Shown one piece after another: positions 11,652 to 40,567 of a stretch of 64,000 bases of DNA. Numbering within the stretch: the stretch's first letter is position 1; each line of letters opens with the position of its first letter. The DNA is taken from the NCBI GenBank assembly GCA_021527695.1, contig JAKFAO010000002.1:1364501-1428500 (forward strand). Direction: 5' to 3'. The notes under the pieces were generated by a model, which was not told where the DNA came from, did no database searches, and worked only from the letters and a program-made list of their open reading frames with translations. A program made the position numbers and the translations under genes. The stretch comes from Naematelia aurantialba. Taxonomy: Eukaryota > Basidiomycota > Tremellomycetes > Tremellales > Naemateliaceae.

Positions 11652-12236
11652 ATGTCTTCCAGGCCCGTCAGTGGTCCAACTGCAAGTGCCTCCTCAGTTG
11701 CTTCCACACAAGCTACATCCACAGATAGCGTCATCCCTGGAAGTAGTGGACCGAAAGACAAGGCGATGAGAATCTTCAAAACGGCTAAGAGAACGCGTTG
11801 GGATCTGTATCAAACTCAGAAACACAGCATTTATCGGGTCCTACACAACCGTCACGGTGACGAACGCATGGAGCGCTTCTTCCAAACAATATGCACCATT
11901 TTGCAGACTCGACTGTCTACAGGAGTCGTCACCCTCGACTATTGCGTATCGGTCTTGTCGAGCTGGCCTGAACGTACTCTGACCGACAATCAAAACACTT
12001 TCGTGGATGCCGTCAACCAGATACGAGGTTCAACCGGTACCAGGTCGGGAGGTCGGCCTGTCCTCACGTATGGAGCAGAGAGCAGCAACCAACGTCGGGG
12101 TGTCCTCACTTATGGAGCAGAGAGTGGCAATCTAACTCGGACCCAGTTAACCCCCGCTCCCTCGCAGCAGATGATCGCCAGCTTCCAATGGCAACAGCAC
12201 CACCTCGGGGGTGCGACTCCAGGCGCCTCGGAGTGA
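11652..12236 (+). CDS. array A member 3, unknown function
   Basis: Single-exon gene of 194 residues. After a Ser/Thr-rich N-terminus of about 40 residues it repeats the module of the previous gene: R-W-D-L-Y, Y-R-V-L-H-N-R-H-G, Q-T-I-C-T-I-L, R-L-S-T-G-V-V-T-L-D-Y-C and S-W-P-E-R-T. The tail carries a short internal duplication (VLTYGAESSN / VLTYGAESGN). I chose the ATG at 11652 because its context (ACCAGATGTC) matches the array B gene at 29872. Function unknown; the resemblance to the gene at 10117 is clear by eye. Confidence 0.6.
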   Translation: MSSRPVSGPTASASSVASTQATSTDSVIPGSSGPKDKAMRIFKTAKRTRWDLYQTQKHSIYRVLHNRHGDERMERFFQTICTILQTRLSTGVVTLDYCVSVLSSWPERTLTDNQNTFVDAVNQIRGSTGTRSGGRPVLTYGAESSNQRRGVLTYGAESGNLTRTQLTPAPSQQMIASFQWQQHHLGGATPGASE

Positions 12237-13013
12237 CGGACGTAGAGGGATTGCGTCGGTCCATAACACAGTCGTATTAGCCTGTCACCCCAGCAGTCAG
12301 CGTAAAGTTAGAGCGGGCAGTATCCTAGAGTCTCGTAATTAGTCAGCATTCGCTCTCACCATGCCGCTCAGTGAATACATCTTACCCGACAAGTGCCCCG
12401 TGAGCTCGGCTCCGCGATCCTTACCCAAAGCCACAGTGTCCTGTAACAAGGACAACTGCTGCCGAGGTATGGATCCACCGGCGAAAGTGACTATAGTACA
12501 TACAGTAAAAGTCTCCGTGAGGATGCTCAGCAGCGTCAATACGCCACCAACCTTGGTTGGACGATCCTCGGGCATCTACGCCACTCCTAGAGTTCAAGTT
12601 GCCCATTTTGCGAGTTTGAAACCAAAGTAGACTATCCGACCGTGCCACCTCGGTGGGGTATCTGGCGATTACCTAGTGGAAATGTCGCTTGGACCCATGG
12701 GTGGACTGAGGAGGACGAGGAATTGCGAGGATGTTTCGGAAGCCACCGCGTCACGCAGCGAAACCCTGTGCAAAAGAACAGCTTCAACCCCACCTCGCTT
12801 ATCAGAACTAACGTCATGTCGCAAATACTCTAGTCCCTTGGGAAGCCGTGGGCGATAAAGGAAGGGTGTGGGCACCTTCAAGGCGCACGTAAAGCGCGTT
12901 TGAAGGACCTAACGCCTCGCGTATTCCCTCCATCAGAACTATTTAATCACTCCCTATTGTCTTGAATATTGAAACCAAACCATTATTCAAACCAAATCTT
13001 CAAGCAAACTAAA
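12237..13013. other. intergenic, no convincing gene
   Basis: An 89-residue open frame with an ATG (12361-12630, plus) exists, but nothing shared with the neighbouring families supports it. CTATTTAATC near 12940 is a possible TATA-like element for the next gene. Confidence 0.35.
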
Positions 13014-13727
13014 ATGTTTGACGAGGAGATGGGTGAGCCGACAATGAGAGAGACTACGAGTTGCACTACGCCCTCTCTGGGCCAAGAGACGTTCGGCAGT
13101 TCCCCAACCGAAGACGTCCGTGATGACACATCTACAGAGCAAGACTTGCTTAGACACCGAGTCGACGTGGCCAGACGGATCGCAGAAGTCGCTGAAACAT
13201 GCTGGAACTCATTCTGCGACCAACATGCAGATGTCGGCGATTCGAGAAGACTGTCCGAGGTGTACACTAAGACGAAAAACACTGGCCCAGAGCGCTTGCT
13301 CCGTTCTCTAGCAAAAGTCGCTTCGGAGGGGATACTGGCCTGTGTACACGGAGAGTGCACCGAGCAAGAGGTTTACAACCGGCTGACACAGTGGCCAGAC
13401 AATCTCTCTACCCAAACCTCCCAGTTTTCCGACCTTTGGCTGAGCCAGCGAAATAGTGAAGACCCGTACTCTTTGTTTTCCCCGTCTGGGCTGGAAGGGG
13501 GCCAGCGCATGTCAACAAGTGCGGTCCATGACGGCCTCTTTCTCCAGGACTTGATGGCTGCACACCGGTCTGCCGCCATGCTCAGTTTTCTTCTTCGCGA
13601 CCCGTCGAACTGGGAAGAGATCAGGCGCCAGTTATACCCCGCTATCCCCGGACCACAGCCTCTCCAAATGTCACTTGGCGGCGGCTTGTACCCCCCGGGA
13701 ATAACCCGGGGCACGAGAGGTCCGTAG
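13014..13727 (+). CDS. array A member 4, unknown function
   Basis: Single-exon gene of 237 residues with an acidic N-terminus. It shows a diverged array A module: a C-W-N-S-F helix, an R-R-L-S-E-V-Y segment, then G-P-E-R-L-L-R-S-L, G-E-C-T-E-Q-E-V and T-Q-W-P-D. The hydrophobic and aromatic positions keep the order of the genes at 10117 and 11652, although identity is low. The C-terminal third is specific to this copy. No known domain, signal peptide or membrane segment is seen. Confidence 0.55.
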   Translation: MFDEEMGEPTMRETTSCTTPSLGQETFGSSPTEDVRDDTSTEQDLLRHRVDVARRIAEVAETCWNSFCDQHADVGDSRRLSEVYTKTKNTGPERLLRSLAKVASEGILACVHGECTEQEVYNRLTQWPDNLSTQTSQFSDLWLSQRNSEDPYSLFSPSGLEGGQRMSTSAVHDGLFLQDLMAAHRSAAMLSFLLRDPSNWEEIRRQLYPAIPGPQPLQMSLGGGLYPPGITRGTRGP

Positions 13728-14343
13728 GCTCTGAATAGAGTTTCCCGTGCCATGTCGTTTCTGCTTCTGTCTCACGTGAGATTATGTATATCCCTTTGAT
13801 CCTGGCTCCCTTCGCTCTGATGTGTCAATCTACTAGCAAGCGCCAAATTCAGTGAGGTGCGCCGCAAGATCACTGGAAGACTAAGCGACTAAGCCTGAAC
13901 ACTTGTGGTCTTCATCCATTCGTGGTTCGTGCAATGCATTCTGTCTTGTCCACATGGCTAGTGGCAATTGGGGGTTGTGAGTGCCAACTCAGATGTTTCT
14001 GCTTGCCCCCACTTACCCGGTTACCCGCATGCGCTCCACAACCAAGGCGATCAAGCTTCCTTTGTACCCTCAAGGTCTCTCCCGTATTATTCAGAGACGT
14101 CCTTCGTCGAGATCAGGTGGAGTGCGTTTGTTAAGACGTGTCATTCGTCCTCGAGATGTTTTGTGTTAAGCGTCTTAGCGGGGAAGATTTTCAGGTGAGA
14201 CCTATGTAAGCTATTTCCATCGTCTGAGAGCTTCAACAGAGGTGACGTAGTGGTTCTGTCCGGCTTTTGCAAGAAGCGTCAGCAGATCCCAGCGGCTTCG
14301 TCCGAGGGAATGTGGAACCCTTGGAAGGCATGCCATCGCGCAG
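13728..14343. other. intergenic, no gene seen
   Basis: Short overlapping open frames only. A CACGTG hexamer lies near 13774. This is probably the promoter of the next array A gene. Confidence 0.4.
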
Positions 14344-15273
14344 ATGGAAGACATCGTGCGGCGCAGAGTGAACACCTATCGGGTGGAAGGCGTACCGAGA
14401 AGGCTCTGCGGTGGATCCAGTTCATACAAGAGGGCGCCATTTGGGGTACGCCCAATGCTCAGCCCACTCTGCCCACCTTCTCCGCCCAGCCTTACATCAG
14501 ACGACTCGAGACCGATGAATACCGATCGCAGCGACCAGTCGCTTCCCGCGACATCTACAAGCAGCGTTACACCGGGCGACTCGAGATCCCAGTCAAGCAA
14601 CATCGACCCCGAGCTGCTCAGCCACCTACAGGAGACATCTATAGTGGAGACGGATGTGCCTGAGCCCGAGAAAGATCCTCTCATCTTGCCCTTGCGCAGC
14701 GCTGACTCCAAGTGGTCCCTGCTCCGGGTGAGCTGGAGGAACCCTGCTGTGGGCACGGAAACCACTTCGGAACGCAAGGAACTGGAAAGCACGGGCACTA
14801 TGGCCATCGTGTTCATTCCCCGGGCCGAGTACCCTTCCGCGTACAAACAGATCTCGGCGTTGACCCTCCCAATCAGCAAGATGCCTCTCACGCCACGTAC
14901 GGAGGAGACAGACGACGACGGCCCTGTTGCTTCAGAGGAGTTTGTTCAGTCGATGAGGAGAGACTTTGGTAACTCGTGCAATCATTATTACGTGAAGAAC
15001 GTCGGTAACCCTCTGCTGGAGGGAGACCGCGACACTGATCAGTGGCCCGTAATGTGGGATACGTGGTCAGTCTATGTGGCGTTTACGGCGTTAATAGCGG
15101 CATCCGCTTCCCCGGCCCCAAACTCGCGAAGTCCCACCGAGGGTGACGTGCGGCACGTTGTCCGTAATTGGATCGGCCTCACTTATCCGCTAAAGAGCCG
15201 GCAGGAAACCGCTGCAGTAACGGCTGGTGCGTCTCTGGCGGGAAGCCAGGCCATTACCAAGGCCACGGAGTAA
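14344..15273 (+). CDS. array A member 5, unknown function
   Basis: Single-exon frame of 309 residues from the ATG at 14344; ATGs at 14456 and 14515 are possible later starts. The N-terminal half is Ser/Pro/Asp rich. The C-terminal part has W-D-T-W-S-V-Y, then P-T-E-G-D-V-R-H-V-V-R-N-W-I-G, which may match the T-L-x-x-C-x-x-x-x-x-W-P-E part of the other array A genes. Membership rests on position, strand and this weak resemblance. It is the largest copy in the array. Confidence 0.45.
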   Translation: MEDIVRRRVNTYRVEGVPRRLCGGSSSYKRAPFGVRPMLSPLCPPSPPSLTSDDSRPMNTDRSDQSLPATSTSSVTPGDSRSQSSNIDPELLSHLQETSIVETDVPEPEKDPLILPLRSADSKWSLLRVSWRNPAVGTETTSERKELESTGTMAIVFIPRAEYPSAYKQISALTLPISKMPLTPRTEETDDDGPVASEEFVQSMRRDFGNSCNHYYVKNVGNPLLEGDRDTDQWPVMWDTWSVYVAFTALIAASASPAPNSRSPTEGDVRHVVRNWIGLTYPLKSRQETAAVTAGASLAGSQAITKATE

Positions 15274-15704
15274 CATTCCAGGGACCCAGATGGCACTCAC
15301 ACTTGCCATTGTGGGAGGCTCTTCTGCCGCTTGATGGTTGTTTATGCCTGTTCTCAGTTGGTACTTTGATGCATTCATTTGGAGCTTGCCCTCGGGATAG
15401 ATCTCGTGTAGGAAAAGCGTCTTCCAGCGTGTCAGCGCGACTCTTCCTTATCCTTTAGTGACGAACCCTCACGGGGCTTCTATCGAAGAAAGGCCTGGAT
15501 CGTCATCAGCTCCATGGGAATTTGTTGGAGTGCTACTGGAAGGCTCTCAAGGAGGCGACACCCCTTCTCGCCGAGGATATGAAGTATAGCTACCTGGCTA
15601 CCTTCTGGAGCGTAACTGCGTACACAACTCATTCACAGTAGGTACCGATTTTTCGTTTACCCACAAGCAAAGAGCGCTGTTGCAGTCAACCCGCAGCGTT
15701 CACA
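15274..15704. other. intergenic, no gene seen
   Basis: Spacer between two array A genes; nothing recognisable. Confidence 0.4.
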
Positions 15705-16232
15705 ATGTCGTCTGTCTTTGGCCCCCCACCTCTCGCCTCTGCAACAGACGCGGACTGGACCGAGCCAGCCACGCGCGACTTTATTGATGCCCAACTCCGC
15801 TGGCTGAAGGGATACCAGCGAATTTACGCTGGTCGTGTAAGCTGGTTTTACAGAGAGTACCGATCTCGTGTGGATAAAACACTTGGTGCTCGGACTTTCG
15901 GTATGACCGCCTTTGGCCCTAATTCTGCGCAACACAGGATAATGGAAATGACCCTACAAGACTTCAAGAAGACCATCGGTAGTCTCAGATGGTACGAGTC
16001 GTGGCACGAGCAGGAGGACGGCACGGCGGAAACACCCTGCGTGACTAGGGAAGAGGTTCAGTCGTCCCTCAAGGATTACCTGCACTGTTTCTGGGAGCCG
16101 GACGGCGTCCCAGAGGCCTACTGCCTATTGGAGGCGATCACGGGGCTCGGAAGAAAGTCGGGACGTCTTTTATCCACCCACGCATTCCACATGGCATTCT
16201 CAGCTTACTATGCCAGTGCATTCAGCTCGTGA
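15705..16232 (+). CDS. array A member 6 (weak), unknown function
   Basis: Single-exon gene of 175 residues from an ATG in good context (ACAATGTC). It is rich in aromatic residues and looks folded. A segment with L-K-G-Y-Q-R-I-Y ... W-F-Y-R-E-Y-R-S-R may match the W-D-x-Y ... Y-R-x-x-H part of array A, and T-R-E-E-V-Q-S-S-L-K-D-Y-L-H-C-F-W-E-P may match the T-L-x-x-C ... W-P-E part. The match is weak, so it may instead be an unrelated orphan. No membrane segment or signal peptide. Confidence 0.5.
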   Translation: MSSVFGPPPLASATDADWTEPATRDFIDAQLRWLKGYQRIYAGRVSWFYREYRSRVDKTLGARTFGMTAFGPNSAQHRIMEMTLQDFKKTIGSLRWYESWHEQEDGTAETPCVTREEVQSSLKDYLHCFWEPDGVPEAYCLLEAITGLGRKSGRLLSTHAFHMAFSAYYASAFSS

Positions 16233-21917: not shown

Positions 21918-22490
21918 ATGTCGCCCAGTATGTCGACCGCTTTCGACACAGCGCTCAGGTCCTTGTATGGTCTCAAGAGCTCTCTGACCCTCGCCCTCCA
22001 AGGAAGGAGCGATTCAGAAAGTCAGGATGATCCCGCGTCCATCGCACGTATCATGACTGCAGACTGGAACAGCTATCTGAGACAGAGTGTGGCCAACAAC
22101 GACTTTGTAGCGTTGGAATGGATGGTGAGCATACTTACCCGCTAGGACCGTCGGGCTAGCCCCTCACACTTTGCGTAGACAGATCTACTGAATGGTCGAA
22201 ACCCGAAGCGATTTTCGGCCGTCTTCAGCAACAGGTCGTTTAGAAGAATGGATCTCGCCACTTATATCACCAACACCAGCTTGCGGCATGGGTCAAGAGA
22301 CGCTTTCAGCACACTCCTCCATCACCACAATATATATGGCAGCTCCAGGCCCCCCAGCGAGGACGCCCTGCACTCGGCCCGAATGGCCATGTTCCGGCTG
22401 GCGAATATACCTGACGAAGAGTCGGAGCGTTTCATACGCGACAGCAAGCAGGAAGAGGACGACAAGACGACAACTACACCCACCTCGTAA
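21918..22490 (+). CDS. array B member 1, unknown function
   Basis: Exons 21918-22124 and 22179-22490 joined by a 54-base phase-0 intron; 172 residues. The first exon ends in D-W-N-S-Y-L-R-Q-S-V, the array B helix. The second begins T-D-L-L-N-G-R-N, followed by an F-x-x-M-D-x-x-x-Y block and then M-A-M-F-R-L-A-N-I-P-D-E-E-S-E-R-F. The start of exon two is almost the same as in the next gene (T-D-L-L-T-G-Q-N). This is one of the shortest copies and lacks the long disordered N-terminus of later members. There is no signal peptide or membrane segment, so a soluble intracellular protein is likely. Function unknown. Confidence 0.7.
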
Positions 22491-22870
22491 TTCATCGAGG
22501 AAACTGATGTAGTGCATGGCATAACCCAAAGCGAGCGGAGTGCAATATACTGTATCGTAATCAGCAACACCTCTTCGATCTGTTCTTTTCGCCTGTGTCC
22601 AGACGCCTCCCAGACTAGTTTTTCTGATTAACAACGACAGTTTGTATTCATTCGGGAGACAACCACTGACAGCTCAACGAAGAATGTTCTATAGGCCTTC
22701 GCATGAATATTCCATAAGGCTTCACCTCTTCATTAGCAGAACCGTCGCCTACTCAGACGCGGAAGTCAACAACGCCTGTCTGAAAGAAACCAAGAGGCTG
22801 AGCAAGACTCTGTCCCTCGTCGCCTACCCGTAAGATTCGCATTATTCTCAGGAGGGTTGTGGTGCCGGAT
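22491..22870. other. spacer between array B members 1 and 2
   Basis: Intergenic; CCATAAGG near 22715 is the only TATA-like element. Confidence 0.4.
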
Positions 22871-23472
22871 ATGTCCACATTCTCCGAGAGAACGCTCAAG
22901 AGGTCTTGGAGGCGAGTCAAGAGCTTTCTCAGACTCTCCGCCTCTGTACAGGAGACACAAGAAGGCGTTCCCCTGACTACCAGCATGGCGGAGGACTGGC
23001 ACAGGTACCTGAGAGATAGCGTCGCCACCTACCACAAGAAGACTGGCCTCATCAAGAAATACGAAGCTCTAGCCAGAGTCGTAAGTACGTTTGGGAATGT
23101 ACCGCATGCAAACACGGTCGCTCATTGGGCCGGCAGACAGATCTTCTAACTGGCCAAAATGTCGAGAGATTCGAGTCGTCGTTCAAAGGCAGCTCGTTCC
23201 AGCATATGGACCGCGAGGCCTATGTTGAAGAACTCACTGAATTAGGGTATTCGGGTGCTACGCTGGACCGCATCAGGGACTTCAATCCGGCGGAGGGTAC
23301 CTCCATCGAGGGGAAACAGGCGCTGAACGAGGCGCGAGAGGCCATGTTCCGCCTCGCCTGTGTTTCAGACAACGAAACTCGGCGGTACATGGCCGAGATG
23401 GAGCGGATCCTGCCCAACCATTTAGCCGCCCAAAACATGATTGGTTCGTCCCTAGGTTTACCCCCCTGGTGA
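22871..23472 (+). CDS. array B member 2, unknown function
   Basis: Exons 22871-23080 and 23137-23472, 56-base phase-0 intron, 181 residues. The basic N-terminus is followed by M-A-E-D-W-H-R-Y-L-R-D-S-V at the end of exon one. Exon two starts T-D-L-L-T-G-Q-N, then F-Q-H-M-D-R-E-A-Y, and ends with the family block E-A-M-F-R-L-A-C-V-S-D-N-E-T-R-R-Y. With member 1 it forms the closest pair at this end of the array. No known domain. Confidence 0.7.
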
Positions 23473-24066
23473 GCGCTGGGTACATGGGTTCGAGGGCTGG
23501 AGAACATACCGTCTCATTGGGTTCATACTGTACATGTGTGTGTGGCATTGCGGAGACGATATAAGACCTACAGTAGGGTGTCATAAATCATGGCACACAC
23601 GGACGCGTCCATTTCCCTTAACCTTTCCTCCATCTTGCCTTCACTGAGCCCCGTCCCGGCTGCCATATATTGCTCCCTATGCTACATCTTGCTCTCAGAC
23701 CTGTCCCATATTGTGAAGCGACCTTGATAATGCCAGGAACACAACTTACACCTCGAAAAAGAGCAACCATAGCTGAGGCAGCACGCTCAACTCGCACCAC
23801 TTCCTGAAACCACAGGAGGAAGAGGGAAAGTGTCACGGGCTGTGGTACGGGTTACGGCGGTGGTATACCTGGCGTGGACGAACGGTTTCTATATAGAACG
23901 GATGTATACTTGAGATGAGATGCGATACATTCGATGAGGATATCGAGACAGAGTTGATCTGCTATATACGAGGGACTACGTCACCCTACAGGGACTCATC
24001 GAATGGATTACTAAGGGACGGGGCACGTTCGGGGCGATACGGGTTCCCTTAGACGATATATCCTAA
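23473..24066. other. spacer with possible remnants of array B exon one
   Basis: No intact gene. In the frame that leads into the next copy there are stops at about 23911, 23932 and 24064. Confidence 0.4.
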
Positions 24067-24527
24067 AAGGGGAAGTGCGATGGATTCCATGACAGAAAGC
24101 ACGATGCCTACTTTGTGGTGGTGAGCAGCATTCCCACCGCAGTACAGGTAGGGATCATGCTGAAGATGTTCAGCCCAACCTAGTCGATGGGCACACTATC
24201 AACAATTTGTCCAGCACCCGACATCAGTCTTTCGACATCCTGGAAAGGTCTTCGTATCTGCATCTGCTCAATAGCCACCCTGCCGACGCCCTGAAGATGA
24301 AACAGCTAGCTGAACCCCTAAGAAGCTACTCGGAAGGTAGCAACGGCAGAACGAGGCATGAAGCTAAACTCGGAATAAAAGCTGTATTCATCGTTGCTGG
24401 AATCACAAAAGAAGAATTTGCCACTTACGAAGCGGACGTGCTACGCGGGCAAAAGGAGGAGCAAGCACAGCATCGGGCATGGTTTGGGACGGTGCACGAC
24501 CCTTTCAACCCCAGACAACTTCGGTGA
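24067..24527 (+). pseudogene. array B member 3, degraded: intact exon two only
   Basis: Exon two (24174-24527, 118 codons) looks intact. It has V-D-G-H-T near its start, then H-Q-S-F-D-I-L-E-R-S-S-Y-L and K-A-V-F-I-V-A-G-I-T-K-E-E-F. A correct phase-0 intron precedes it (24121-24173, GTGAGC...TTCAG). The stretch before the donor reads F-H-D-R-K-H-D-A-Y-F in frame, weakly like the exon-one helix, but a TAA at 24064-24066 closes the frame and no ATG lies between. So the copy has either lost exon one or uses an upstream exon I could not find. Confidence 0.5.
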
Positions 24528-25005
24528 TGATCGCACTGCTATCCCGTCACTGCAGCTTTGACGGTGCATGACCCAAGAGACCTGGTTGACTACAGGGAGC
24601 TGCTCCAGTTGCAGCAGACATCCCATATCGCTGCCAGCAAATTACCTTGCAGAATTGACGTACTCCTCTGAGTATAGAAATTGATGATCACCCCATAATT
24701 ATAGCTACAGATTGATGAGCTTGACGAGATGTCTATTTCGGTCCGATGAAAGTATGCTCCACCTTGCCGCCTTCCGTACAAGTCTTCCCACACGTCACCG
24801 TCATGCACAATGCCTTCCAAGAGGAGGAAAATCGCCGCCAATCGCGATACGAGGCGGTCAGGGTCTTGAAATGCGCAAATGCCGACATCAAAAGTGAGTT
24901 CGTTGGAAGGCCACTCTACAGCACATATCTATGTGCGCTGCAGACGTGAACAACGGGTCATCCGTAACCATTATTCTCGCGCAGATTCAACGCCAAATCA
25001 TTGAA
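24528..25005. other. spacer with a possible extra 5' exon for array B member 4
   Basis: An ATG frame at 24746-24893, followed by a 50-base intron-like segment (24894-24943, GTGAGT...TGCAG), would join in frame to the coding region that starts at 25006. This would add about 70 residues. I list it as possible only. Confidence 0.3.
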
Positions 25006-25880
25006 ATGCTCCCTTACTTCCGTAGAAGTAATCGCCAGGCTGGTTACCACGATTCGCGCCACGGGCAGTCTGGTCAAACGTCCTCGTCCTCCAACATCGA
25101 CTCCCTCCCCCTGCTTCGGCACACCGAAGGAGGCAGCCTGAGCCGCAGCTCCGGCCTGTATTACCTGGACCCGGGTTCCGAGAGCACGATTGGCTTAAGT
25201 ATGCCTCAGAGCCCAAACTCAGAAAGTCTCACTCAGCTAGCGCGCTCCAGCGGAGGCGCTGGCCAAACAAGCACAACGCTATCGCAGTCACGGCGTCCGG
25301 TTGGTGTCCCTTCAGGGCAGTTTTACGATCTGAACCGTATGAGCGTCGGAGACTACCCAACTCCGAGACCCATCTCGAGTCCCGATCGACGTCAGAGGCA
25401 GACGGAACGCAACGTAGCCGCTGTAGACGCGCTCGAAACCTTCTTGAAGCAGTGTGTAGACCGGAGCTCGTGGTTCGCCTACCCTGTAGTGGTGAGTCAT
25501 ACACTGCGTGTCCTGACCTATGGGAGTGACATACTACTCAGGAGAGCCTCCTCACAGATCGCAGACAGGGTATTCGAAAGGTTTTCGTCACCCAGGACGA
25601 CCTCTTTCGCGGCCTGACGCTCAAAACCTATATCGAGGTGCAGTCAACAAGGATCACGCCGCAGCAGTCGGGCCTACTCACCACCGTGCAAAGCTTTGCC
25701 GCTCAAGGGGGGGTCCGCAGGCGCGAGCCACAAATTTCGTTACCGACCGCTGTGAGTGCGGTCTTTGGCCTGGCGGACGTGTCAAGAGTCGAGTTCCACG
25801 AGTATGAGGCAGTCTATATGGAGGCGGAAGAGAGGGACGTGGGTAACTTGACAGAGTCCCTTGGTGTTCTATTATCGTGA
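25006..25880 (+). CDS. array B member 4, unknown function
   Basis: Exons 25006-25491 and 25542-25880, 50-base phase-0 intron, 274 residues from the ATG at 25006; an in-frame ATG at 24931 or a spliced upstream exon could lengthen it. Exon one is a Ser/Gly/Gln/Arg-rich, probably disordered region ending in the helix A-L-E-T-F-L-K-Q-C-V. Exon two starts E-S-L-L-T-D-R and ends with the block S-A-V-F-G-L-A-D-V-S-R-V-E-F-H-E-Y. The disordered N-terminus shows no relation to other copies, although the C-terminal half clearly does. Confidence 0.65.
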
Positions 25881-26477
25881 CAGGCGCGATGACCATCAGC
25901 CAATAGGATCGAACAGGCCTGCTTGCCAGTGCTTGCTGCTGTGGTAGAGCCTTATGTATATGCCTGATGCATAGACCTGTTTCTCTCGTCGGAAACAAGA
26001 TCAGAAGCATGGCGGTCCCCTCAGTCCAAAGCCTGCCCTCACAGCTCTTACATGATACAGTCTTCTTTGCAAGCGGACCTGAATCTACAGATAATCTCTA
26101 GAGCAAAAGGCTTTGACCCCGGGAGCCAATCGCACGATACAAGCATGTGACTCATGCCACTTGCCCCACCTTCATGGCCCACTTCCTGCCACGCGGTACA
26201 GCCCACAAACTCCCACCTGAGCTGTGTCGGCGTAACAAGGGAAGAGCAAATAATAGGAAGACCAGGAAGAATGGCAACCGTTACCGACAACCGAGCTCAC
26301 ATACGCCGGCTGTCTTTCCATGAATACTTGAGAGTTTCGCCACTCCTCTCACATACCTGAACTAACGCCTTGCCTCCAAAGTCTGTACCGGTGCTGGGAT
26401 CTTGCATCGATCTTATCCAACCGTTCAATCTTATCTTCGCTCCGCGTCCTTGCGGCTAGCACAGCATCGACACCTTA
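25881..26477. other. spacer between array B members 4 and 5
   Basis: No gene supported. Short open frames on both strands have no family resemblance. Confidence 0.4.
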
Positions 26478-27715
26478 ATGGAGTCATACCAAGAACAAAG
26501 CCAGCTAACTGAGAGCCTGCCCATGCTGGATGGTAGGGGCCTTACTGATGTGAATCAAGCAGAGGAGGGCGATGTACAATGGGGCTCGCATGACACACCA
26601 TCTGACTCGAGCGACTCGAGCGACTCACTTCATGTGGTCGGTCCAAGTGGCAATCCTGCAACAATGACACCTTCCACGATAACAGGGTACCCAGACCGCC
26701 CGTTTCTATCCTCGGGTCTGACGAGAGGGACAGATGACAGAGCCATTAGGCGGCAAGCGGCGGAGACAGCCACCAGCGTTGAATTGACACCCTCGTTGGA
26801 GGATCCGCCGAACCTGGCTGGAAGGCTTACACCGGGGATGATGGCTGATGACGAAGCATCTGATGACGACGCATTGTCAGAGGACTACTTTCCTCCCCCT
26901 GGCTTGCCGCCTGTGAACACCCCCAACGGGCGATCCCAAGAAACAAATTCAGGCTCCAGCAGCGAGGGGGAAACCTCTTTGCAGGTTTGGATTGGACCAG
27001 GAGGCCGTACGTTAGCCCCAAACGAAGATTTCGACGATTCCGAGTCGCCCGAAACGCATTCGTTGTCGTCGCCCTTGGATCACCCCCTTACAGTTGAAAC
27101 AACGGCACCTGGGCCACATGTAGAGGACCACGAACGACAGCTGTCATGGTACGACCGGCTCATGTCATCTCTGGGCAGCTGGCAGAGACAGGTGGAAAGC
27201 TATTTCACGCCAATGACCGATGAACAGCTCGAAGACAGCATGGTGCTTGGGTTTCACAAAAGTATCAGAGATCTGTTCGATGGCGACATTGAGAACAATG
27301 ATGCGTTCCGGATAGCAGTAAGCAGTTACACTGATGTCCAGTATCCAGGGCTCTGACGTAGTTGTAGGCAGTCATCGTCACCGGTCACCCGAACGGTTTC
27401 AACAGCTCCGAGTCCTTCCAACATGAGACCTTTGCAATCCTGGATCGCGCAGTTTATCTGGCAACGCTCAAACGGCGTGGTGACCTGTCAGACGAACAAC
27501 GGGGCTGGATAAGGGAGGTCGAAAGCTACTATCACAGCGTCATGCCGATTGAAGCAAAGGTCAGGGCTCTGTTCACGGGAGTGGAAGCAGTCCTCAGCTT
27601 AGCGGGTGTGGAGAGCCACAGGATCGTTCCTTACCTCTCGATAATAAGAAACCGTCATAGTCGCCGAGCACGCGAGTCTGAAACGACGAGCCGCACAAGT
27701 AACGAGCTCCGATAG
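26478..27715 (+). CDS. array B member 5, unknown function, longest copy
   Basis: Exons 26478-27317 and 27368-27715, 50-base phase-0 intron, 395 residues. The first 220 residues are acidic, Ser/Pro/Thr rich and disordered, with a short repeat encoding S-D-S-S-D-S-S-D-S. Then follow W-x-R-x-V-E-S-Y-F-T-P-M-T-D-E-Q-L-E-D and M-V-L-G-F-H-K-S-I-R, nearly the same pattern as in member 6. Exon two has no ATG of its own; it carries S-F-Q-H-E-T-F-A-I-L-D-R-A-V-Y-L and E-A-V-L-S-L-A-G-V. Function unknown. Confidence 0.7.
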
Positions 27716-28004
27716 TCACACACCCACAAGCAACAGTACATGGTGTGTAGTGTGTGTAGATGCGCAGCCATCATGCATACGATGCTCGATGACGACAAGG
27801 GGCTTCCAGAGACCGTCATAGTATGTGAGATCGGGGGTTACATCGGACCTCCTTTCAGCTAATGAATGAGTGTGAGCCAGTACGGTGAATAATTGATGTT
27901 TCTTGAGACTCTACCGTCTCCACCTCCCCCTCGTCTTCGCAATTCACAAGATTTCCACCAGTACTTGAGCTTACACAAGACCGTTCACCACTGCGAGCCC
28001 AATC

Positions 28005-28890
28005 ATGCAATCGACACATCGACCAAGCGATCTAGATATCTCTACGGTGGCTTCACCTGCACCTGCCAGCTACGACCCCACACTTTCCGGTCAGCGATAC
28101 ATCAGATCGCTCCAGGACTCGGAATTTTGCGCAGATATAACCACGGGAACTCACCAGAGTGCAAGGGCTGATGAGCATCCACTCACTAGGCTTGTGGTTA
28201 CCAGTGCTTCTCGTCCCGCCTCACTGTCAACGGGTTTGGAGGATTCGGAAGGCTCGCGGGCTTCTGCATCGCACATTCCCGAAGCTCCGAAGAGCAATTC
28301 CAAATGGAGCAAGGTGAAGGAAGCACTTTTGGAGTGGAGGGATAAAGTGGAGCGCCTGGTAACACCAATGAGCGAAGAAGATTTACAGGACAAGATGGTG
28401 ACTGACTTTCACAATTATATTCGCCAACAAGTGGAAAAGGAGACGCAGTCTTCCAAACCACTAGGCATGATAGTGAGTTAGCGTCTTCCGTGGAGATTTC
28501 GGAGAGACGCGGCCCAGCTGACACGATTGACAGAAGGTCGTGGTTAGGGGCACTGAGCGGAGTTTGGCACGCTTCAATAAGGTCAAGTACAAGTCGTTTG
28601 CCAATCTGAATCGCGCCCAATACCTGGCTTCACATGATCGAAACGACCTCTCACCGAATCAAAGCAATCTGGTCGCCCGTGTCAGGTCATACAGCGATGC
28701 TCTGGAGCCTGCGGCCAGGTCTCAAGCCTTATTGACTGCCGTAGAAGCTGTATTCGGTCTTGCCGGTGCCGATCCGATCAAGAGCACTGAATATCTGAAC
28801 CGGATGAGGTCCCAGAAACGCGAGGATGCTTCGAGGCCAACCCAGGATGACTCGTCCAACAGAGGGCCGCGGTTGGGTGACTTTCTTTGA
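28005..28890 (+). CDS. array B member 6, unknown function
   Basis: Exons 28005-28472 and 28534-28890, 61-base phase-0 intron, 274 residues. The N-terminal 95 residues are Ser/Thr/Pro rich. The conserved part begins W-S-K-V-K-E-A-L-L-E-W, then K-V-E-R-L-V-T-P-M-S-E-E-D-L-Q-D-K-M-V and D-F-H-N-Y-I-R. Exon two has K-S-F-A-N-L-N-R-A-Q-Y-L and E-A-V-F-G-L-A-G-A. It is the nearest relative of member 5, in both the T-P-M-[TS]-[DE]-E segment and the second exon. Confidence 0.7.
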
Positions 28891-29871
28891 CCGGAGGACA
28901 TTAAATAGTCTGAAGGAGTGGTTTATTGCTTGATGAGAATACCGTGCCCTAAGCAGCATGGCGAAGTCAGGACTTGTCTTTATGGGACGAGAGTTGATGA
29001 GTCGATAGTGGCCAAGCTGGCTGGTCCGGTCAGTGCCGACTCTCATCATAGATGGATTTGAGCGAAAATCGGTCCGTGCGTGGCACCCGACTTGGGCGTA
29101 GAGTTTCACGCAGAGCCTCGGCATAACATTCGTGGGCATGAGGGTGACCTGACTGGCATCCTCGCTGCTCTCATCAGTTTCCCCGCATGGAGGGCAGGTT
29201 TAAAGGGGTTGTTCTTACGCTTGTGCGAGGACAGAGGGGCAACGAATAGGTGACAAGAAATTTGCAAGTTTTCGTTACTTAACAAGGACTACCAAGGACT
29301 GCTCCGGAGACGTCCGCATGGCGCGGTGCTGAACGTCTCTTTGTGGGAGACGGAAACCGGCCCAGAAAGCCCTTTTGTCCCTCCCTCCCATGAGCGAGTG
29401 GCGTGTCGTGAGTCCGCCCACATCCCCCTTCTACAGTGCTAACTTCTCAGCAGCCTGAGAGGAAATCCACTTTACAAGCGGTGTGAATGTTTAGTAACGC
29501 CGCATACATCGTGGGACAAAGGTCGGGTCCGGATTCGGGCGGATTTCTGATAGAGATAGGGAAGAAGAGGTCGTTGCTTCCCTTCCTGGTAACAATGGGA
29601 AAGAATGGTAGATAGCTTCATTGGAGGACGACGAGAGGAAAGGAGGACAGCCGGCGTTCGCATGCGTACAACAACAATGGCCGATGCTTCGAGCCATGGA
29701 TCGAAACTCCGTCAGAAGGCCTCTTCTGATCGCAGCCTGCCCTCGGCCTCCCAAAAGAGGATATAAAGCCCCATAACGGCGAGCTCTTTCCTCTGATCTC
29801 TCAACAAGCTTGTCATTCTACTCCCTCCACCTCATTCATTACATTCAGTTTCACAACCTCTGACCAACCAG
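28891..29871. other. long spacer before array B member 7
   Basis: About 980 bases with no supported gene. The last 110 bases hold a TATA box and pyrimidine-rich leader for the next gene. Confidence 0.45.
29762..29767 (+). promoter_or_regulatory. TATA box of array B member 7
   Basis: TATAAA, 110 bases upstream of the ATG at 29872, followed by a pyrimidine-rich leader. Members 8 and 9 have similar boxes at a similar distance. Confidence 0.55.
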
Positions 29872-30848
29872 ATGTCCTCCAATTGGACAGATCCACCCCA
29901 GTACAACACTTACAACCCTTACAACCCCGATCCTAATGCTTCACCCCAGTACGACTACTCTGCTGGAGCCCCTTCCAACCTTACAGGGGAGTACTCTCCC
30001 CAACTACCGCCTGGGCTCGGCGGCCAAGCGAGCTACATCCCGTCAACAGGCTTTGAGCCAGATGCCAATTGGCAGTCATCTAATGAACAGAGACACACTC
30101 GGCCAACTGTGACCTTCGCTGCAACCCCCTCGGGAAGCCAGCACGTGTCAACAGCCTCTGGGAGCGGCCAAGCAGCCGCAAGCTCGAGCAGCGGTGCTCC
30201 GTCACAAAGCGGCCGATCGGGTCCTTTGGCGGGTATGAGGAAGTTTGGAAGCCTCGTTTCCAAGGCTGCGAAGGGGGTGGAGAGACTGTCCCAGCAGAAG
30301 TCTCAAGAAGAGCAGGATGAGATGATGGTCTCGGCTTTCCACAGGTATCTGAAAACAGAGGTGGAAGGAAATCTGGAGAGACAATTGGGGCGGGCAAGCG
30401 TGAAAGGCGGCGGGTCTGCAATTCATCTGATGGTGAGGCACCTCTGTTTCCTAGGTCTGAATTGAAGCAGACGTGCTTATGTGCTTTGCAGAAGTCACTG
30501 CTGGATAAGGAAAGCTTTGAGGGACATACAGAACTCCACTTCCGCACGTTTGCAACTCTCGATCGGCGGACCTACGCTCGTGTATTGAGAAGGACGTGGG
30601 GGAGTGGACACCTACAGCAGCAGGTCGGACGAATCGAAAACTACGGCAGGGATCCGAACGTGAGAATGAAAGACGCTGTGAGAGCCATGTTCATGCTTGC
30701 GGATGTCGAGACCCAGAAGAGTGAGCAGCTTATCGACATATACTGGACAACCCGAGCCTCAGGAAGAACGATAGACCCGATGCAGGAACTGCGTCGCAGC
30801 ATCTTTCCTACAAGCAATAGAGGGGGAACGTCCACCGGTCGAGGTTGA
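29872..30848 (+). CDS. array B member 7, unknown function
   Basis: Exons 29872-30432 and 30492-30848, 59-base phase-0 intron, 305 residues. The N-terminus is rich in Pro, Tyr, Asn, Gln and Ser with a repeated Y-N-P-Y-N-P motif, suggesting a disordered, prion-like region. The conserved part reads S-K-A-A-K-G-V-E-R-L, then E-M-M-V-S-A-F-H-R-Y-L-K-T-E-V-E. Exon two holds F-R-T-F-A-T-L-D-R-R-T-Y and R-A-M-F-M-L-A-D-V-E-T-Q-K-S-E-Q. A TATA box lies 110 bases upstream. Function unknown. Confidence 0.7.
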
Positions 30849-31397
30849 CCAGAGGATATGTCTGCGACGACAGAAACCTATTCGGGGGAGTTGACAGTAT
30901 GCATATGCATCATATGACGGCGGACAAGCAATGTAGCGTAACTAGAGATTCACCTCTAGTATGAGCCCTTTCCTTAACAGCTTGCCAAAACAGCTCGGAG
31001 GTTAGTGCACAAAGTGCTGATTCGGTTCAACGTTGCAGTTATCGGGGACGAAGAGGCCGTGAACTATGCTTCGTTCTTGCAGTGAGCAGTACAGACCAGT
31101 AGACTGGCCGTGGCAATGGGTTGTGAGTGACAGGACCACCGATCGATCAAGTTCCTCAAAATGGGGGCTTCGCCACTGGGAGTGTCGGCCCGTCCAACTC
31201 GGCATCCACGTCCACATGGCGGTGAACCAGAATCATCCAAACATCCAACTTGAACAGGTTGGATTCGTGGGAGCCGTTGACACCTCCATTATTTGTGAGG
31301 ACAGCTTCGCCGACTTTGGCTAGCCTGGCACAAAAGTAGGGTCTGTGAAGAAAAGTAGCAAGACCGATTGCGGTAAAGCTCCCGATGTCTTCCTTTG

Positions 31398-31726
31398 GCA
31401 GCAAGAAGTATCGTCTTGAACGAAGGTTAGCGACTTCCATTTGTTGCAAGCCATTGGCTGACATTGCTTCCCTGGGATAAAGGCTGTATCGGATCACCGG
31501 TAGTTATAACAGGTTGCGGTGTACAACGCCCGCGAGCGACCTTTCATGACGGGGAGTCTTCATGAGAAAGAAAGGTAGAGGCATCCATTCTCGGCGCGTT
31601 TCTTTGTCAACCGTCTTTGCTTGACAGAAGCATCCGCTAGAGAGGAAGTTGACCACCATTATTCCTGTCTCCGCCAGCCCCATGCCCCGATGCCCACCCA
31701 CGGTCAGCGTGGGTTAGGTATATAAG
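31398..31726 (+). repeat. duplicated promoter block, copy 1
   Basis: Shares exact stretches with copy 2: GCAGCAAGAAGTA at 31398 (copy 2 at 32925) and CGAGCGACCTTTC at 31533 (copy 2 at 33059), then GACGGGGAGTCTT in both. The offset is constant (1526-1527 bases). The block ends in a TATATAAG box at 31719. Confidence 0.7.
31719..31726 (+). promoter_or_regulatory. TATA box of array B member 8
   Basis: TATATAAG, 119 bases upstream of the ATG at 31838, at the end of the duplicated promoter block. Confidence 0.6.
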
Positions 31727-31837
31727 TCGATCTTCCTGAATGTTCTTGTCTTCATCGATATAATTCTTCACAGACAGCCAAGGATCACTCTCATATCTGA
31801 CTGATAGTGACCCCCTGCTCTTATCCTAAGCTAGCAA

Positions 31838-32461
31838 ATGGCAGAATCCAGTACTAGAGGAAGGGGAAGCAGGTGGAACAGGGTGATGACCAGGGTCCGC
31901 AGTCTTACTCAGCTCAATCAGGGGAGGGACTCGAGAGGCTCGAGGACCTATTATGAGCGGGATCACCTGCCGCTGGAGAGCCTTCAAAATTTCCTCGAAC
32001 CCAGGCTCAGGACGGGAGGAAATCTTCTGAGGACTGGTTTAGGGAACATAGATAGTGCGAGAGAAAAGGCGGTGACAGTCGTGGTCAGTATTAGCCGTCC
32101 AGTGTTGACTAACTCGAGCTGACGGAACCCTCAGTGGATGCTTCTTGCTGAAATGTCAATCAGAGATGTCGAAGGAATCCGATGGACAGCAGCTGAGGAA
32201 TTGACAAAAACTGAGTTTCTGAGTCTCAGAGACCGTCATGTGCGACAGCGAGGAGGAAGGTCGGTCGATCGCGACAATGTGGAAAATCATCAATCTCCAT
32301 TTCTCCAGTTGAACCATCGCGGTGAGACAATAGTTCCCAGAGCCCCCTATGCGGTGACTTTGTCGTTCTTGCGTCTCGCCACAAGGATACCTGATGAGAC
32401 ACTAAGAGCTTGCCTCGAGAGCGTGTATCCTGCCTATGAGATCCTCGAAGAATGGGACTAG
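31838..32461 (+). CDS. array B member 8, unknown function
   Basis: Exons 31838-32083 and 32135-32461, 51-base phase-0 intron with a GTCAGT donor, 190 residues. The basic N-terminus (W-N-R-V-M-T-R-V-R-S-L) is short, and exon one ends in a diverged helix with L-Q-N-F-L-E-P-R-L. Exon two starts W-M-L-L and has the same length (109 codons) as that of member 9. Its terminal block is L-S-F-L-R-L-A-T-R-I-P-D-E-T-L-R-A-C-L. It forms a clear pair with member 9. Confidence 0.7.
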
Positions 32462-32924
32462 GTTGAGACGTTTTACCTCAGACTACTGTACCAAATTGTT
32501 CATGTATATACACTGTACGCTCCCCTGGAGCCATCTACATACACATAGGATTCTATGGACATGAAACTCCATCGTTTCGGATGGGACAGGGGAGGCAGCC
32601 ACACAGAGTTCACCAGGCCCCTGTCGAGTCCCTCTACCTGACTTTGGCTGGCTGAGTCGTAGCAGGGTCAGGTGGGCAGTGCTTGCCCTGCCGCAAACTA
32701 CAACAGTCCCTCCCCAGGCGTCGTATGGGGCCGGTGTCGTGCCGTTAATTGTGGGGACAAGCCTACCATGTGGAGACTCGAGAGGGGTACCAGAGCAAGA
32801 GGGGGAAACAAGAGATACATGCCTCGGAGTATGTTTGAAACAGTGTAAAACAGATCCTGTGTCTGGGCTTCGCCATGGAGTAGGCAAAGTCGGTCATGAC
32901 ATAAAGCTCCCTATGGCTCCTCTT

Positions 32925-33154
32925 GCAGCAAGAAGTAGCGTCGTGAACGAAGGCCAACAACTTCCATTTGTGCAAGCCCTTGGCTGCCATCGATCTGCTG
33001 GTTCAGAGGCCGAGTTTGGAACAAAGGTAGTACATCCCTTCACAGTGTACAGTTCAGTCGAGCGACCTTTCGTGACGGGGAGTCTTGTCTGGTCAGAACG
33101 GAAGAGGCAAAAAATACAGAGCGAAGGCGAAACCACCATTGGGACGTATATAAA
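32925..33154 (+). repeat. duplicated promoter block, copy 2
   Basis: Second copy of the block at 31398-31726, shorter by about 100 bases just before the TATA box. It ends with TATATAAA at 33147. Confidence 0.7.
33147..33154 (+). promoter_or_regulatory. TATA box of array B member 9
   Basis: TATATAAA, 94 bases upstream of the ATG at 33241, matching the TATATAAG of member 8. Confidence 0.6.
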
Positions 33155-33240
33155 TCAATCCTGCTGTAGCTAAATGTCTTCATCAATCTCATCCTTCACA
33201 AGCAGCGATAGGCCCAGCTCATCTTCCAAAAGCAGCGAAT

Positions 33241-34047
33241 ATGGCAGACCGAGAGAGCATTTCCACTACACGGGCTACTGCATCAGTCAATACCCCCACG
33301 CAAGAGTCTTCCATACGTTTTGCAGCGCCTGAAGAATCCAATCCATATTGGCGCCCCGTGGGCGTGGATGGTCCACCCACATCGGATGACCCCGCTGGTC
33401 ACGGGGAAGGAAGCAGCACACAACCCGTGTCATCCCAATTGGTCCCACCAAGCCATGGTGAGTCGTCGCAGACCAGAGCTCCAAGTGGCAGTGGCAGGTT
33501 GCGCACCTTGGTCAAGCGCATGAAGAACAACATAGTGTCAACCAAGACTCCCAAGACGAAGATTTCAGAGGACGAAAAAATGATGAATGACTTCCAAAAG
33601 TGGCTGGAAAACACCGTCCGCGCAAGAGCCCCGACCACAAGGAAGGATGCGGCGCAGGCTGCGGTTAGTACACAGGACTCTGGTGGGCACGAATCACACC
33701 CATACTGACAGCTGTCGTAGTGGTGTGTTCTCAACGGGCACTCGATTGAGAACATGCAAGGCAATCGGTGGACGACATATAGCCAAATGACGAGAGACAC
33801 GTTACTGAATCTGTCACGTGCCTACCCCCGAAGGGAGACACAGGAGGATGATTGGACTCTCGTGCAGCGCTGGCAGCCCAGGATTGACTGGTCTCCACGC
33901 GATAACTGGTTATCGCGTGAAATGGCTGGAGCGCCCTTTGAAGAAACCCGGGCCGTCTTGCGTCTTGCCACGAAGCTTTCGGACCCCGAGCTCCGCACCT
34001 ACCTGTCGAGCTTTTATCCTCGGATGCTACCGGGAGATTCAAGCTGA
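33241..34047 (+). CDS. array B member 9, unknown function
   Basis: Exons 33241-33663 and 33721-34047, 57-base phase-0 intron with a GTTAGT donor, 249 residues. The N-terminal 80 residues are Ser/Thr/Pro rich, followed by a basic patch (R-L-R-T-L-V-K-R-M-K) and the helix K-M-M-N-D-F-Q-K-W-L-E-N-T-V. Exon two starts W-C-V-L-N-G-H-S-I and ends T-R-A-V-L-R-L-A-T-K-L-S-D-P-E-L-R-T-Y-L. It is the sister of member 8 in exon two and promoter, but exon one is largely different. It is the last copy of the array. Confidence 0.7.
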
Positions 34048-37712: not shown

Positions 37713-40567
37713 ATGTCGGCCCCTTCGTCCACCCAATGGCACGCTATCACCCCTCAGACTCGGCCACTCACACTTTCCATCCTTGAACTCACTCCTCTCG
37801 CCGTGACTCTTGCTCTCACGCTCGCGCCGGTTGCCCCCAATCATCCGAGCACACCAGGCAGTGGGCGAAAGAAGAAACATCAGCGGCGGCGCGAGAGCGA
37901 TGACGAAAACGCGACCGACGATGACCACGCCAACACTTCTCTGAGTGTACCTGGTAGTTGGCCGTCGCTCATTGCTGAAGGAACGAGCTTCAAGGACCTG
38001 TTATCGCATGGTGTGGTCCTGTCAGTTAATGGGCAGCCGTGGAACCGGATCGTCGCGCACGTAAGCGACGACGACGGCGACGAGGTCCCACTGGAGGCTA
38101 TGAGTGATTCTGCAGAAGGTGAAGAGGCGTGGTCAGATATGGAAAGAGCCGGTGAGGAGAATGAGAGCGGATCTGGTGGCGAAGAAGGGGGAGTCACCAG
38201 ACGCCGCCCGCGTAGAGCCAGGTTCAGCTTAAGCGCAGGCAATGCTGTGAAGGGTGACAAGGAAGCTAGGAAGCGGACGGGCAAGGACGGCAGAGCTGGG
38301 GATGGCGACAGGGCGGTCGTGGTTATCTATGGGTTGAGCCCAGGGAAAGAATACGAGATCGAGTTGAAGGTGGTTGGTTTGTCGGGCGAAGATTCCCTGG
38401 GTGAGCGCAGACCACACACCTCAAAGAATAGCTGCTCATAATCGCAGTCTCAAATGCCATTGTCATCCCTCCATCACCCTCGCTACACAATTCTCTGCTC
38501 CCTCGGTCACGGGCAAACTCGTTACGATCAAGATCGCTGCCTCGATCCCGGTCAAATTCAATCAATGCTGCACATCCTGCTTCTCCTCTAGGTCAAGACG
38601 TTCTGAACCTCGGTACCACCCCTGCTGTCAATGGCGATATCTCATCGGCTACTATCCTCCCCCCTCTCGACTCGCAAGCAGCGCAATTACGACACCTCAT
38701 TGCTACTGCGCATACCGACAAGGAGCACCTTCATGCGCAGATCAAAGAGGCACGCCGATCCTCTCAACGCGCTGAAGCGGCTCTACGTGTGGAGATTGAG
38801 ACTGTGAAGAAAGCGATTGAGAAAGCTGGTGGCATGGATATGCGGGCGAAACAAAAGGCGCTAGCTCTGCAGGAGCAAGTAAAACAGGGTTGGGCTGGCG
38901 CCGAATCCGCCGAGGCCGAGACAGCGGCAGTCGAGGAGGGCATGGCAGAGCTCGAGGCGAGGTTGGAGGGTGTGTTGCAGGAAGTGGAGATGGTTCGAAA
39001 CGAGTGGAAGGATGTCAAAGACAAGGAAGAGGAGGTGCGGGAGCGGGAAAAGAAGATGCGCGGAGAGGAGCACAAGAAACTCGTCGAGGTCGTGGCAAAG
39101 ATGGACAAGCTTCGCGCTCGAAAGGAGAAGAAAGAAGCGGAACGTTCGGAGTTGGAAAAGAGGCTGGAAGAGCTAGAGAAGGCACGGGAGGAGGCTGAGC
39201 GACGCAACGAGGAAGAACGGCATCTGCGACGAACAGCTGCACCCCACCCGTCTGCCCATGGCGCACGTTGGGACGAGTGGCACGGTGGTAGTGTCGATAA
39301 CGGGCGGTCGTTGTCTGCCCATCCGAGCCTTACCAACTTGTCAGGCCAGTACGCGGCCGGCCCTGCATACAGACCAAGGGGAGCACCGGGCTACCAACCA
39401 CGCTTTCCTTCTGCCGGGTCAGCACGAACCGGTACTACCGCTGCCTCTGCTGCTGCTGTCGCTGCGTCCCAGGCCAGTCCGACGCACGGTCACGGCTTTT
39501 ACCCAACTGCATCTCCCATCCCGCCGTCGGCATCCGCAACAACAACAAACACGTCTCCCGCGCTACGACCGGCCGCGCCGGGATCCCTCAGGGGCGGGAC
39601 CAACATTGCCGCGTTGCCATTCCATCCGTCCAACCATGATCCGCAGCAGCACCATACCGCGCTCATGCCGCCGCAGCTGCAGCACCGAATCTACCTCGCC
39701 CATCACCACCACGTGCGCCCGCGGCCTGGCCCGACATTCCATCCGCCTCCTAGTGTTGTGGCTGAACAACAGCACCAGCACCACCTGCATCAGCACCAGC
39801 AGCACCACCTGCATGCGCATCAGCATCTGCACCAGCATCAACAGCACCACCAGCATCAGCATCAACAGCAACAGCATCAGCATCAAGCGGCGCAAGCTCA
39901 AACAGCTTCGTTGGCGACCCCGGCGTTCCCACCACTGCCAAGCCAAAGCTCAACTGGGAGCAGCAGCCTGCATGGCTTGGCCAAAAGCTCTCTCAATGCG
40001 ACCACCTCAGCCTCCGGCCCGAGTCTAGCTAGCATCGTGACCCGTGCTGTCCTCTCTCCTACCTCTGCGCTCGCGCAAAACAGCCCCACCATCCCCACCC
40101 CGACCTCACCTACTCCCGCCACCTCGACCACGTCCAACACTGCTCCCAACTCTACCCCCACGTCGCACCAAAACTCGTTGTCCGCAGTCTCTACGCCACC
40201 GCCACCGCCACCCCCCGGACCCGCCAGAGCGTCGAGCCAGGGCTTGCTGCCGTCTCCGTCGCCTGCGACACCGTACGGTACGGGCTACGTCTCGCCAGGC
40301 GGCACGGACCGGGATCGCGACCGCCGAGAATCGCGTGACTTTCCCGCGCTCAGTGCAGGTGTTGGGCCGTGGGCCAGCGTAGGAACAGCGCGCAGTGCGA
40401 CGCCCAGCAGCTGGGTGGCGGGATCTCAGTTTCCCGGCGCCCATGGTGGGGAAAGTCCGGCGGGAAGTGGCAGTGGCAGTGGCAGTGGAAGTGGAAGCGG
40501 ACGCAACTCGCACGCCGGGGGCATCGGCGGTGCGGTAAGGAAGAGCACGGGCGATGCTTCCAGTTGA
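37713..40567 (+). CDS. coiled-coil protein resembling fungal AcrB-type proteins
   Basis: Exons 37713-38400 and 38448-40567, 47-base intron, 935 residues. The N-terminal part contains a hydrophobic stretch (T-P-L-A-V-T-L-A-L-T-L-A-P-V), an acidic linker and an FN3-like strand pattern (V-V-V-I-Y-G-L-S-P-G-K-E-Y-E-I-E-L). After the intron comes an Arg/Ser-rich segment, then a coiled coil of about 170 residues (38700-39220). The rest is disordered: a His/Gln tract (39756-39890), Ser/Thr/Pro-rich stretches and a G-S repeat near the end (40466-40502). The FN3-like strand plus coiled coil recalls fungal 'ubiquitination network signalling' AcrB-type proteins. I am not sure of the family. Confidence 0.6.
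39756..39890 (+). repeat. CAC/CAG repeat encoding a His/Gln tract
   Basis: Interrupted CAG/CAC/CAT codons encode about 45 residues made almost only of His and Gln with a few Leu and Ala. It is inside the coiled-coil gene. Confidence 0.8.

Follow-up and report, generated by a model that had tools for sequence, protein, structure and literature searches.

Tandem orphan families under birth-and-death evolution are a general kind of gene family in fungi, and the wtf spore-killer family of fission yeast consists of clustered, fast-changing, multi-exon genes whose proteins carry several membrane helices. The genes considered here, array B, lie in a 64,000-nucleotide stretch of the genome of Naematelia aurantialba (GenBank assembly GCA_021527695.1, contig JAKFAO010000002.1, positions 1,364,501 to 1,428,500; this whole stretch is called the window below) and, together with a more distant second array outside it, array C, almost certainly constitute a tandem family with a birth-and-death history. 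Array B resembles the fungal orphan families in the similarity of neighbouring copies, the presence of a decayed copy and the lack of any relative found outside, the B family itself having been found in none of the collections searched; it resembles wtf in its clustered, multi-exon and seemingly fast-changing genes, but has no 19-residue stretch with a mean Kyte-Doolittle hydropathy above 1.26. Compared with secreted small cysteine-rich proteins, the B proteins have 0-2 cysteines and no signal-like N-terminus by hydropathy. The tdk meiotic drivers of fission yeasts, a killer family (PF08593/IPR013902), include 15 homologues that are 18.2-28.7% identical to Tdk1 (PMC12930445). Both tdk and the B/C genes are fungal and form many strongly diverged paralogues, decayed copies being described as frequent for tdk (PMC12930445), whereas the PF08593 (Mug135_C) domain of tdk gives no row at an expectation value (E) <= 1 in eight B and four C proteins (of C4, exon 2) and none at E <= 10 in two consensus sequences. 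The tdk proteins also have an N-terminal Z-shaped part and a PP motif.

Array B occupies positions 21918-34047 of the window on the + strand and comprises eight open two-exon genes and one copy, B3, reduced to exon 2 (Table 1). In all eight intact models the exons splice together without a stop; the nine same-strand copies with their coordinates, the phase-0 introns of 50-61 nucleotides (nt) and the exon-2 length of 104-119 codons (stop counted), as set out in an earlier note on this DNA, hold in every intact copy. The intron donors are GTGAG(C/T/G), GTAAG(C/T), GTCAGT and GTTAGT, and the proteins span 172-395 residues; splicing at the eight junctions is predicted from the sequence. A simple in-house gene predictor reproduces five of the eight models exactly (B2, B5, B6, B8 and B9), prefers other ends for B4 and B7, and chooses an overlapping frame instead of B1. 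For B4, this predictor only also suggests a possible extra upstream exon, 24746-24943, with a 50-nt intron. In B3, exon 1 is not recognisable and the open frame has no ATG ahead of the conserved block.

The homology of the copies is best seen in profile searches against the 4920 open frames of at least 35 residues found in 264 kb (the window and 100 kb on each side). When each copy is left out of the profile in turn, eight of the nine exon 2s are recovered, with E from 1.6e-13 to 7.7e-6, the top frame outside the family reaching 0.0097; only the exon 2 of B8 is not recovered, not being among the best 14 matches listed. In BLASTP, all eight intact proteins are joined by links with E < 1e-3, the strongest of them between neighbours (B5-B6 7e-25, B1-B2 1e-16, B8-B9 1.4e-10, B6-B7 1.6e-8; E for the set of eight). 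Because neighbours are near relatives, pairs were also left out of the profile together: the exon 2s of B1 and B2 are still recovered (E 1.3e-6 and 1.5e-7), as are those of B5 and B6 (1.5e-9 and 1.7e-11), and the removal of B5, B6 and B7 at once leaves them recovered at 2.4e-7, 1.3e-10 and 1.6e-4, respectively. With B8 and B9 removed, the B9 exon 2 reaches just E 0.64; its spliced core, which includes the exon-1 helix, reaches 21.3 bits with a profile of the six other copies, a score that none of 445 scored shuffles attains, and B8 shows no link to a profile without B9 (-0.9 bits, which 138 of 416 scored shuffles equal or exceed). The pair is thus tied to the other copies by B9; B8 itself belongs by virtue of its likeness to B9 and of the common gene plan and intron. 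The earlier note had proposed that a profile should link the copies above chance; it does so for eight of the nine exon 2s, and for B8 through B9.

The B profile, scanned over 100 kb on either side, also finds matching frames on the - strand to the left of the window; these make up array C. C1, C2 and C3 agree with the B genes in their exon-2 blocks, in the helix that precedes the splice site and in a correspondingly placed phase-0 intron, which is common to 11 of the 12 models (8/8 B, 3/4 C). The N-terminal part is long and disordered in C1 and short in C2, each of which has one further upstream intron; the acceptors are uncertain in both (intron of 57 or 36 nt in C1, 55 or 37 nt in C2). Against a B-only profile the spliced cores score 20.0 (C3), 17.5 (C1) and 14.4 bits (C2), and of 250 shuffles made for each, none of those scored reaches these values (C1 0/213, best 5.2 bits; C2 0/241, best 11.4 bits; C3 0/224, best 6.8 bits). 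On such sequence grounds, C1-C3 are relatives of the B family, newly found, in a second and more distant array.

Some points count against this reading. C1-C3 were first picked by the same exon-2 profile and their scores are not wholly independent of it, the exon-1 helix and the intron being the independent part; C4 is unsupported as a member (0.3 bits, 18 of 213 scored shuffles as good, intron elsewhere) and stands as a candidate only. In a frame test on exon 2, the coding pairing outscores all 17 other frame pairings for 14 of the 28 pairs of copies, many single pairs being too diverged to reveal the frame and the result being clear for close pairs only (B1-B2, 121 vs 61; B5-B6, 128 vs 57; B8-B9, 110 vs 55). 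In the 19 pairs listed, out of 28, the third codon position shows the lowest similarity, a pattern that protein-based alignments such as these favour. For this reason, and given that only close pairs give a clear frame control, the codon-position pattern was dropped as a main argument for coding.

Over the 264 kb, a profile of B and C (C4 included) finds no further member, the top other frame scoring 8.4 bits against 9.1 bits in a reversed control. Profile scans covered this part of the 21 Mb genome and five further loci, L009, L010, L011, L044 and L048, in which the family profiles recognise nothing. Protein searches of the genome with B or C members, or with one protein of array A (see below), give matches beyond contig C8, which carries both arrays, only at E of at least 0.16 (E 1.6 on contig C12), in searches that scored few candidates and in which B queries missed C1-C3; this does not show that the family is limited to this part of the chromosome. 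We read the family as lineage-restricted.

Table 1. Members of arrays B and C and the shared upstream block (positions in the window unless a contig is given; introns in nt, proteins in amino acids, aa).
Feature	Position	Strand	Details
B1	21918..22490	+	exon 1 21918-22124, intron 22125-22178 (54 nt, phase 0), exon 2 22179-22490; 172 aa
B2	22871..23472	+	exon 1 22871-23080, intron 23081-23136 (56 nt), exon 2 23137-23472; 181 aa
B3	~24189..24527	+	exon-2 remnant; open frame 24093-24527; start chosen by analyst
B4	24931..25880	+	exon 1 24931-25491, intron 25492-25541 (50 nt), exon 2 25542-25880; 299 aa
B5	26478..27715	+	exon 1 26478-27317, intron 27318-27367 (50 nt), exon 2 27368-27715; 395 aa; long acidic disordered N-terminal part
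B6	28005..28890	+	exon 1 28005-28472, intron 28473-28533 (61 nt), exon 2 28534-28890; 274 aa
B7	29872..30848	+	exon 1 29872-30432, intron 30433-30491 (59 nt), exon 2 30492-30848; 305 aa
Block upstream of B8	31374..31583	+	~255-464 nt before B8 ATG
B8	31838..32461	+	exon 1 31838-32083, intron 32084-32134 (51 nt), exon 2 32135-32461; 190 aa; family link via B9 only
Block upstream of B9	32902..33109	+	73% identical to 31374-31583
B9	33241..34047	+	exon 1 33241-33663, intron 33664-33720 (57 nt), exon 2 33721-34047; 249 aa
Array C (C1-C3, candidate C4)	contig C8:1336700-1344433 (locus L021), outside window, ~44-50 kb left of B1	-	profile and gene models

In a tree of the family, nearest relatives are adjacent in the array: B1 pairs with B2 (87/88), B8 with B9 (96/96), and B5 and B6 share a fork (84/93) that also holds the long-branched C3. 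The median terminal branch measures 1.54 changes per column and the longest up to 3.2, B and C labels are intermixed, and one of nine inner branches is strongly supported; with branches so long and forks so weak, the tree cannot place the C genes. Repeated tandem duplication, as the earlier note had it, is supported by the neighbouring position of closest relatives (B1-B2, B5-B6, B8-B9), by the one decayed copy among nine (B3, exon 2 only) and by the related second array. The fast evolution suggested along with it agrees with the strong divergence of the copies and the lack of a relative, but old age fits too; it is supported only indirectly, because telling age from fast change would take an orthologue of a related species. 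The guanine-plus-cytosine fraction at third codon positions (GC3) is 0.53-0.68 in the eight B genes, slightly lower than the 0.60-0.73 of seven stretches taken as conserved neighbour genes, one of them for clathrin; base composition near that of the neighbours thus does not point to a recent foreign source.

B8 and B9 share a block of ~210 nt upstream of their start codons, with 73% identity over 211 columns in BLASTN and, in another alignment, 159 identical bases among 204 aligned. Closer to the gene they share a further 61 nt (74%, E 2e-5, BLASTN). Within the genes, third codon positions are identical at a fraction of 0.35 vs 0.26 expected by chance, exon 2 is barely above shuffles (score 28 vs 26 for the best of 100), and no more similarity than in shuffles is seen for exon 1, the introns or 400 nt of 3' flank. 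A neutral remnant of the duplication would decay like third positions; the block is thus either strongly constrained or a later copy, as gene conversion, for instance, could produce. It is conserved far better than the genes, as expected if expression matters more than sequence. A genome search places it only before B8 and before B9, which does not prove it rare, and a dispersed repeat was rejected on this result; a known or structured RNA is ruled against by Rfam, which gives no match at E <= 1 over 31300-33200, and by fold z-scores of -0.94 and +0.29 on the two strands of the B8 copy, which carry no structure signal.

Along the B proteins, the order is a variable N-terminal part, a mostly basic short stretch, the [FW]HxYLR helix, the splice site, LLxG, the SFxxLDRxxY block, the AVFxLA helix and a charged tail. 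The motifs from which the family was first described are recognisable, but two of them are placed differently: [FW]-[HN]-x-[YWF]-[LI]-[RK] is exact in four of eight proteins (B1, B2, B6, B7) and sits 14-26 residues before the splice site rather than at the exon end, and [AV]-[VM]-F-x-L-A is exact in five of the eight and, instead of being terminal, has a tail of 28-48 residues after it; the S-F-x-x-L-D-R-x-x-Y block is present, though degenerate. The N-terminal part ahead of the core varies from ~10 to ~230 residues, being short in B1, B2 and B8 and long in B5 (net charge -35), and is rich in disorder-promoting residues, which make up 59-68% of the B proteins. By hydropathy only, none of the eight proteins has a membrane-like stretch (the top 19-residue mean being the value given above), and by equally simple hydropathy, rather than a trained predictor, none has a signal-like N-terminus (top 12-residue mean 1.13). 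AlphaFold2 models of exon 2 alone are all helical, with six or five helices, and the helical-looking part seems to straddle the intron, as far as models of exon 2 can suggest. The B proteins thus look intracellular, with a disordered N-terminal tail and a helical domain. A basic amphipathic helix before the core was considered as a family-wide feature and not retained, the evidence being mixed: among seven B stretches and one C stretch (B4 left out), three of eight (B2, B5, B7) exceed 95% of shuffles.

Two profile searches of 5.8 billion proteins give no match at E <= 10 among the candidates scored (8000, a cap, and 3831). A clathrin frame of the window, used as a stop-to-stop query, finds relatives of up to 93% identity in the same collection, which therefore holds fungal proteins; the first of these relatives to bear an organism name is from the basidiomycete Pisolithus albus (76%). 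As the search needs exact common words and the collection may lack spliced fungal genes, the result means that the collection has no close relative, and does not extend to nature at large. In Pfam, no family reaches its cut-off for the eight B proteins, the four C proteins (C4 as exon 2 only) or the two consensus sequences. Rows below the cut-offs, judged to be chance, are HEPN_Swt1 for B1 (E 0.013), Poty_coat for B9 (0.069), REV1_C (0.012) and HALZ (0.015) on one consensus, and CheZ (0.021) on the other; so, too, are PDC-M03B in PADLOC (0.02) and GvpQ (0.084) and pseudo_rSAM_GG (0.14) in NCBIfam, each in one of eight core-alignment members. The best matches among PDB sequences have E 0.16 or worse, and no description of the B family was recognised in the opening portions of literature abstracts. 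That these genes belong to no described family, as previously stated, is borne out within the 5.8 billion proteins, Pfam, NCBIfam, PADLOC and PDB sequences.

Tentatively, and at somewhat less than even confidence, we read the B/C proteins as intracellular adaptors or regulators, perhaps stage-specific, because nothing enzymatic or membrane-bound is seen and a control region is better conserved than the coding sequence. The proteins would remain within the cell; the helical part would serve as an interaction module that binds either a partner or itself, its action being tuned by the disordered tails. Unequal crossing over would make the copies, which would then diverge and decay within one lineage; adaptors or regulators could diverge in this way since the constraint on their sequence would be weak, the helical module and control regions being retained. 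What counts against such a role is that the exon-2 models have a mean pLDDT (AlphaFold2's per-residue confidence) of only 63.6 and 64.1, that a fold search with these low-pLDDT models gave no usable match, and that an adaptor role alone would not account for the retention of so many diverged copies.

This role is slightly likelier than one in intracellular recognition or conflict, whether as killer/antidote, in nonself recognition or in defence against genetic parasites, where selection would act for diversity between the tandem copies. Such a conflict role is a serious, if lesser, possibility. It would account for the many strongly diverged copies, the decayed copy and the second array, and agrees with the lack of an outside relative and with the intracellular look of the proteins, the lack of signal-like or membrane-like stretches arguing against secreted host-interaction proteins. 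The tdk drivers show that small, strongly diverged fungal paralogues can kill (PMC12930445), but their PF08593 domain is not found in B/C proteins. Nor is there linkage to mating-type genes: matches to STE3-type receptors (PF02076) lie at contig C3:579987-580935 and contig C1:363126-363964, and homeobox matches (PF05920) on contigs C11 and C14, all apart from array B on contig C8; the separate contigs of the two would fit unlinked mating-type loci. The more specific proposal, that arrays B and C are an undescribed intracellular fungal conflict family of killer/antidote or nonself-recognition type, with a new helical domain, selected diversity between copies and upstream control regions kept alike, is unlikely.

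Less probable again is an origin from genes of a selfish element or virus, taken over and then tandemly duplicated: the lack of an outside relative and the clustering in two arrays would suit it, but the phase-0 intron in 11 of 12 models argues against recent retroposition, base composition is close to that of the neighbours, and there is no convincing match in Pfam, PADLOC or NCBIfam. That the copies are over-read open frames and not genes, as might be held of models drawn purely from sequence, is very improbable in view of the common intron position and phase, the leave-one-out and leave-pair-out profile matches, and the second array.

Elsewhere in the window, array A (7977-16232, +) is a row of intronless orphan open frames, in which homology is clear between A3 (10117-10704) and A4 (the frame ending at 12236; E 2.8e-18), and A5 (13014-13727) is possibly, though doubtfully, related to them. 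Membership of array A in the B family was rejected, seven A proteins scoring at most 2.2 bits against the B and C profile and hhalign giving A3-A5 a probability of 0.6%; a Pfam row for CUT on A5 (E 0.014) is below cut-off and judged to be chance. The array A gene ending at 12236 contains a 42-nt tandem duplication (12052-12135), and a long open frame at 38432-40567 has repeats (39770-39886) that encode His/Gln-rich stretches.

Tandem orphan families of this kind are a source of new fungal killer, incompatibility and defence genes, and a setting for the study of orphan genes. In N. aurantialba, the intact copies, the decayed copy, the second array and the conserved upstream block all lie within ~62 kb of one chromosome.

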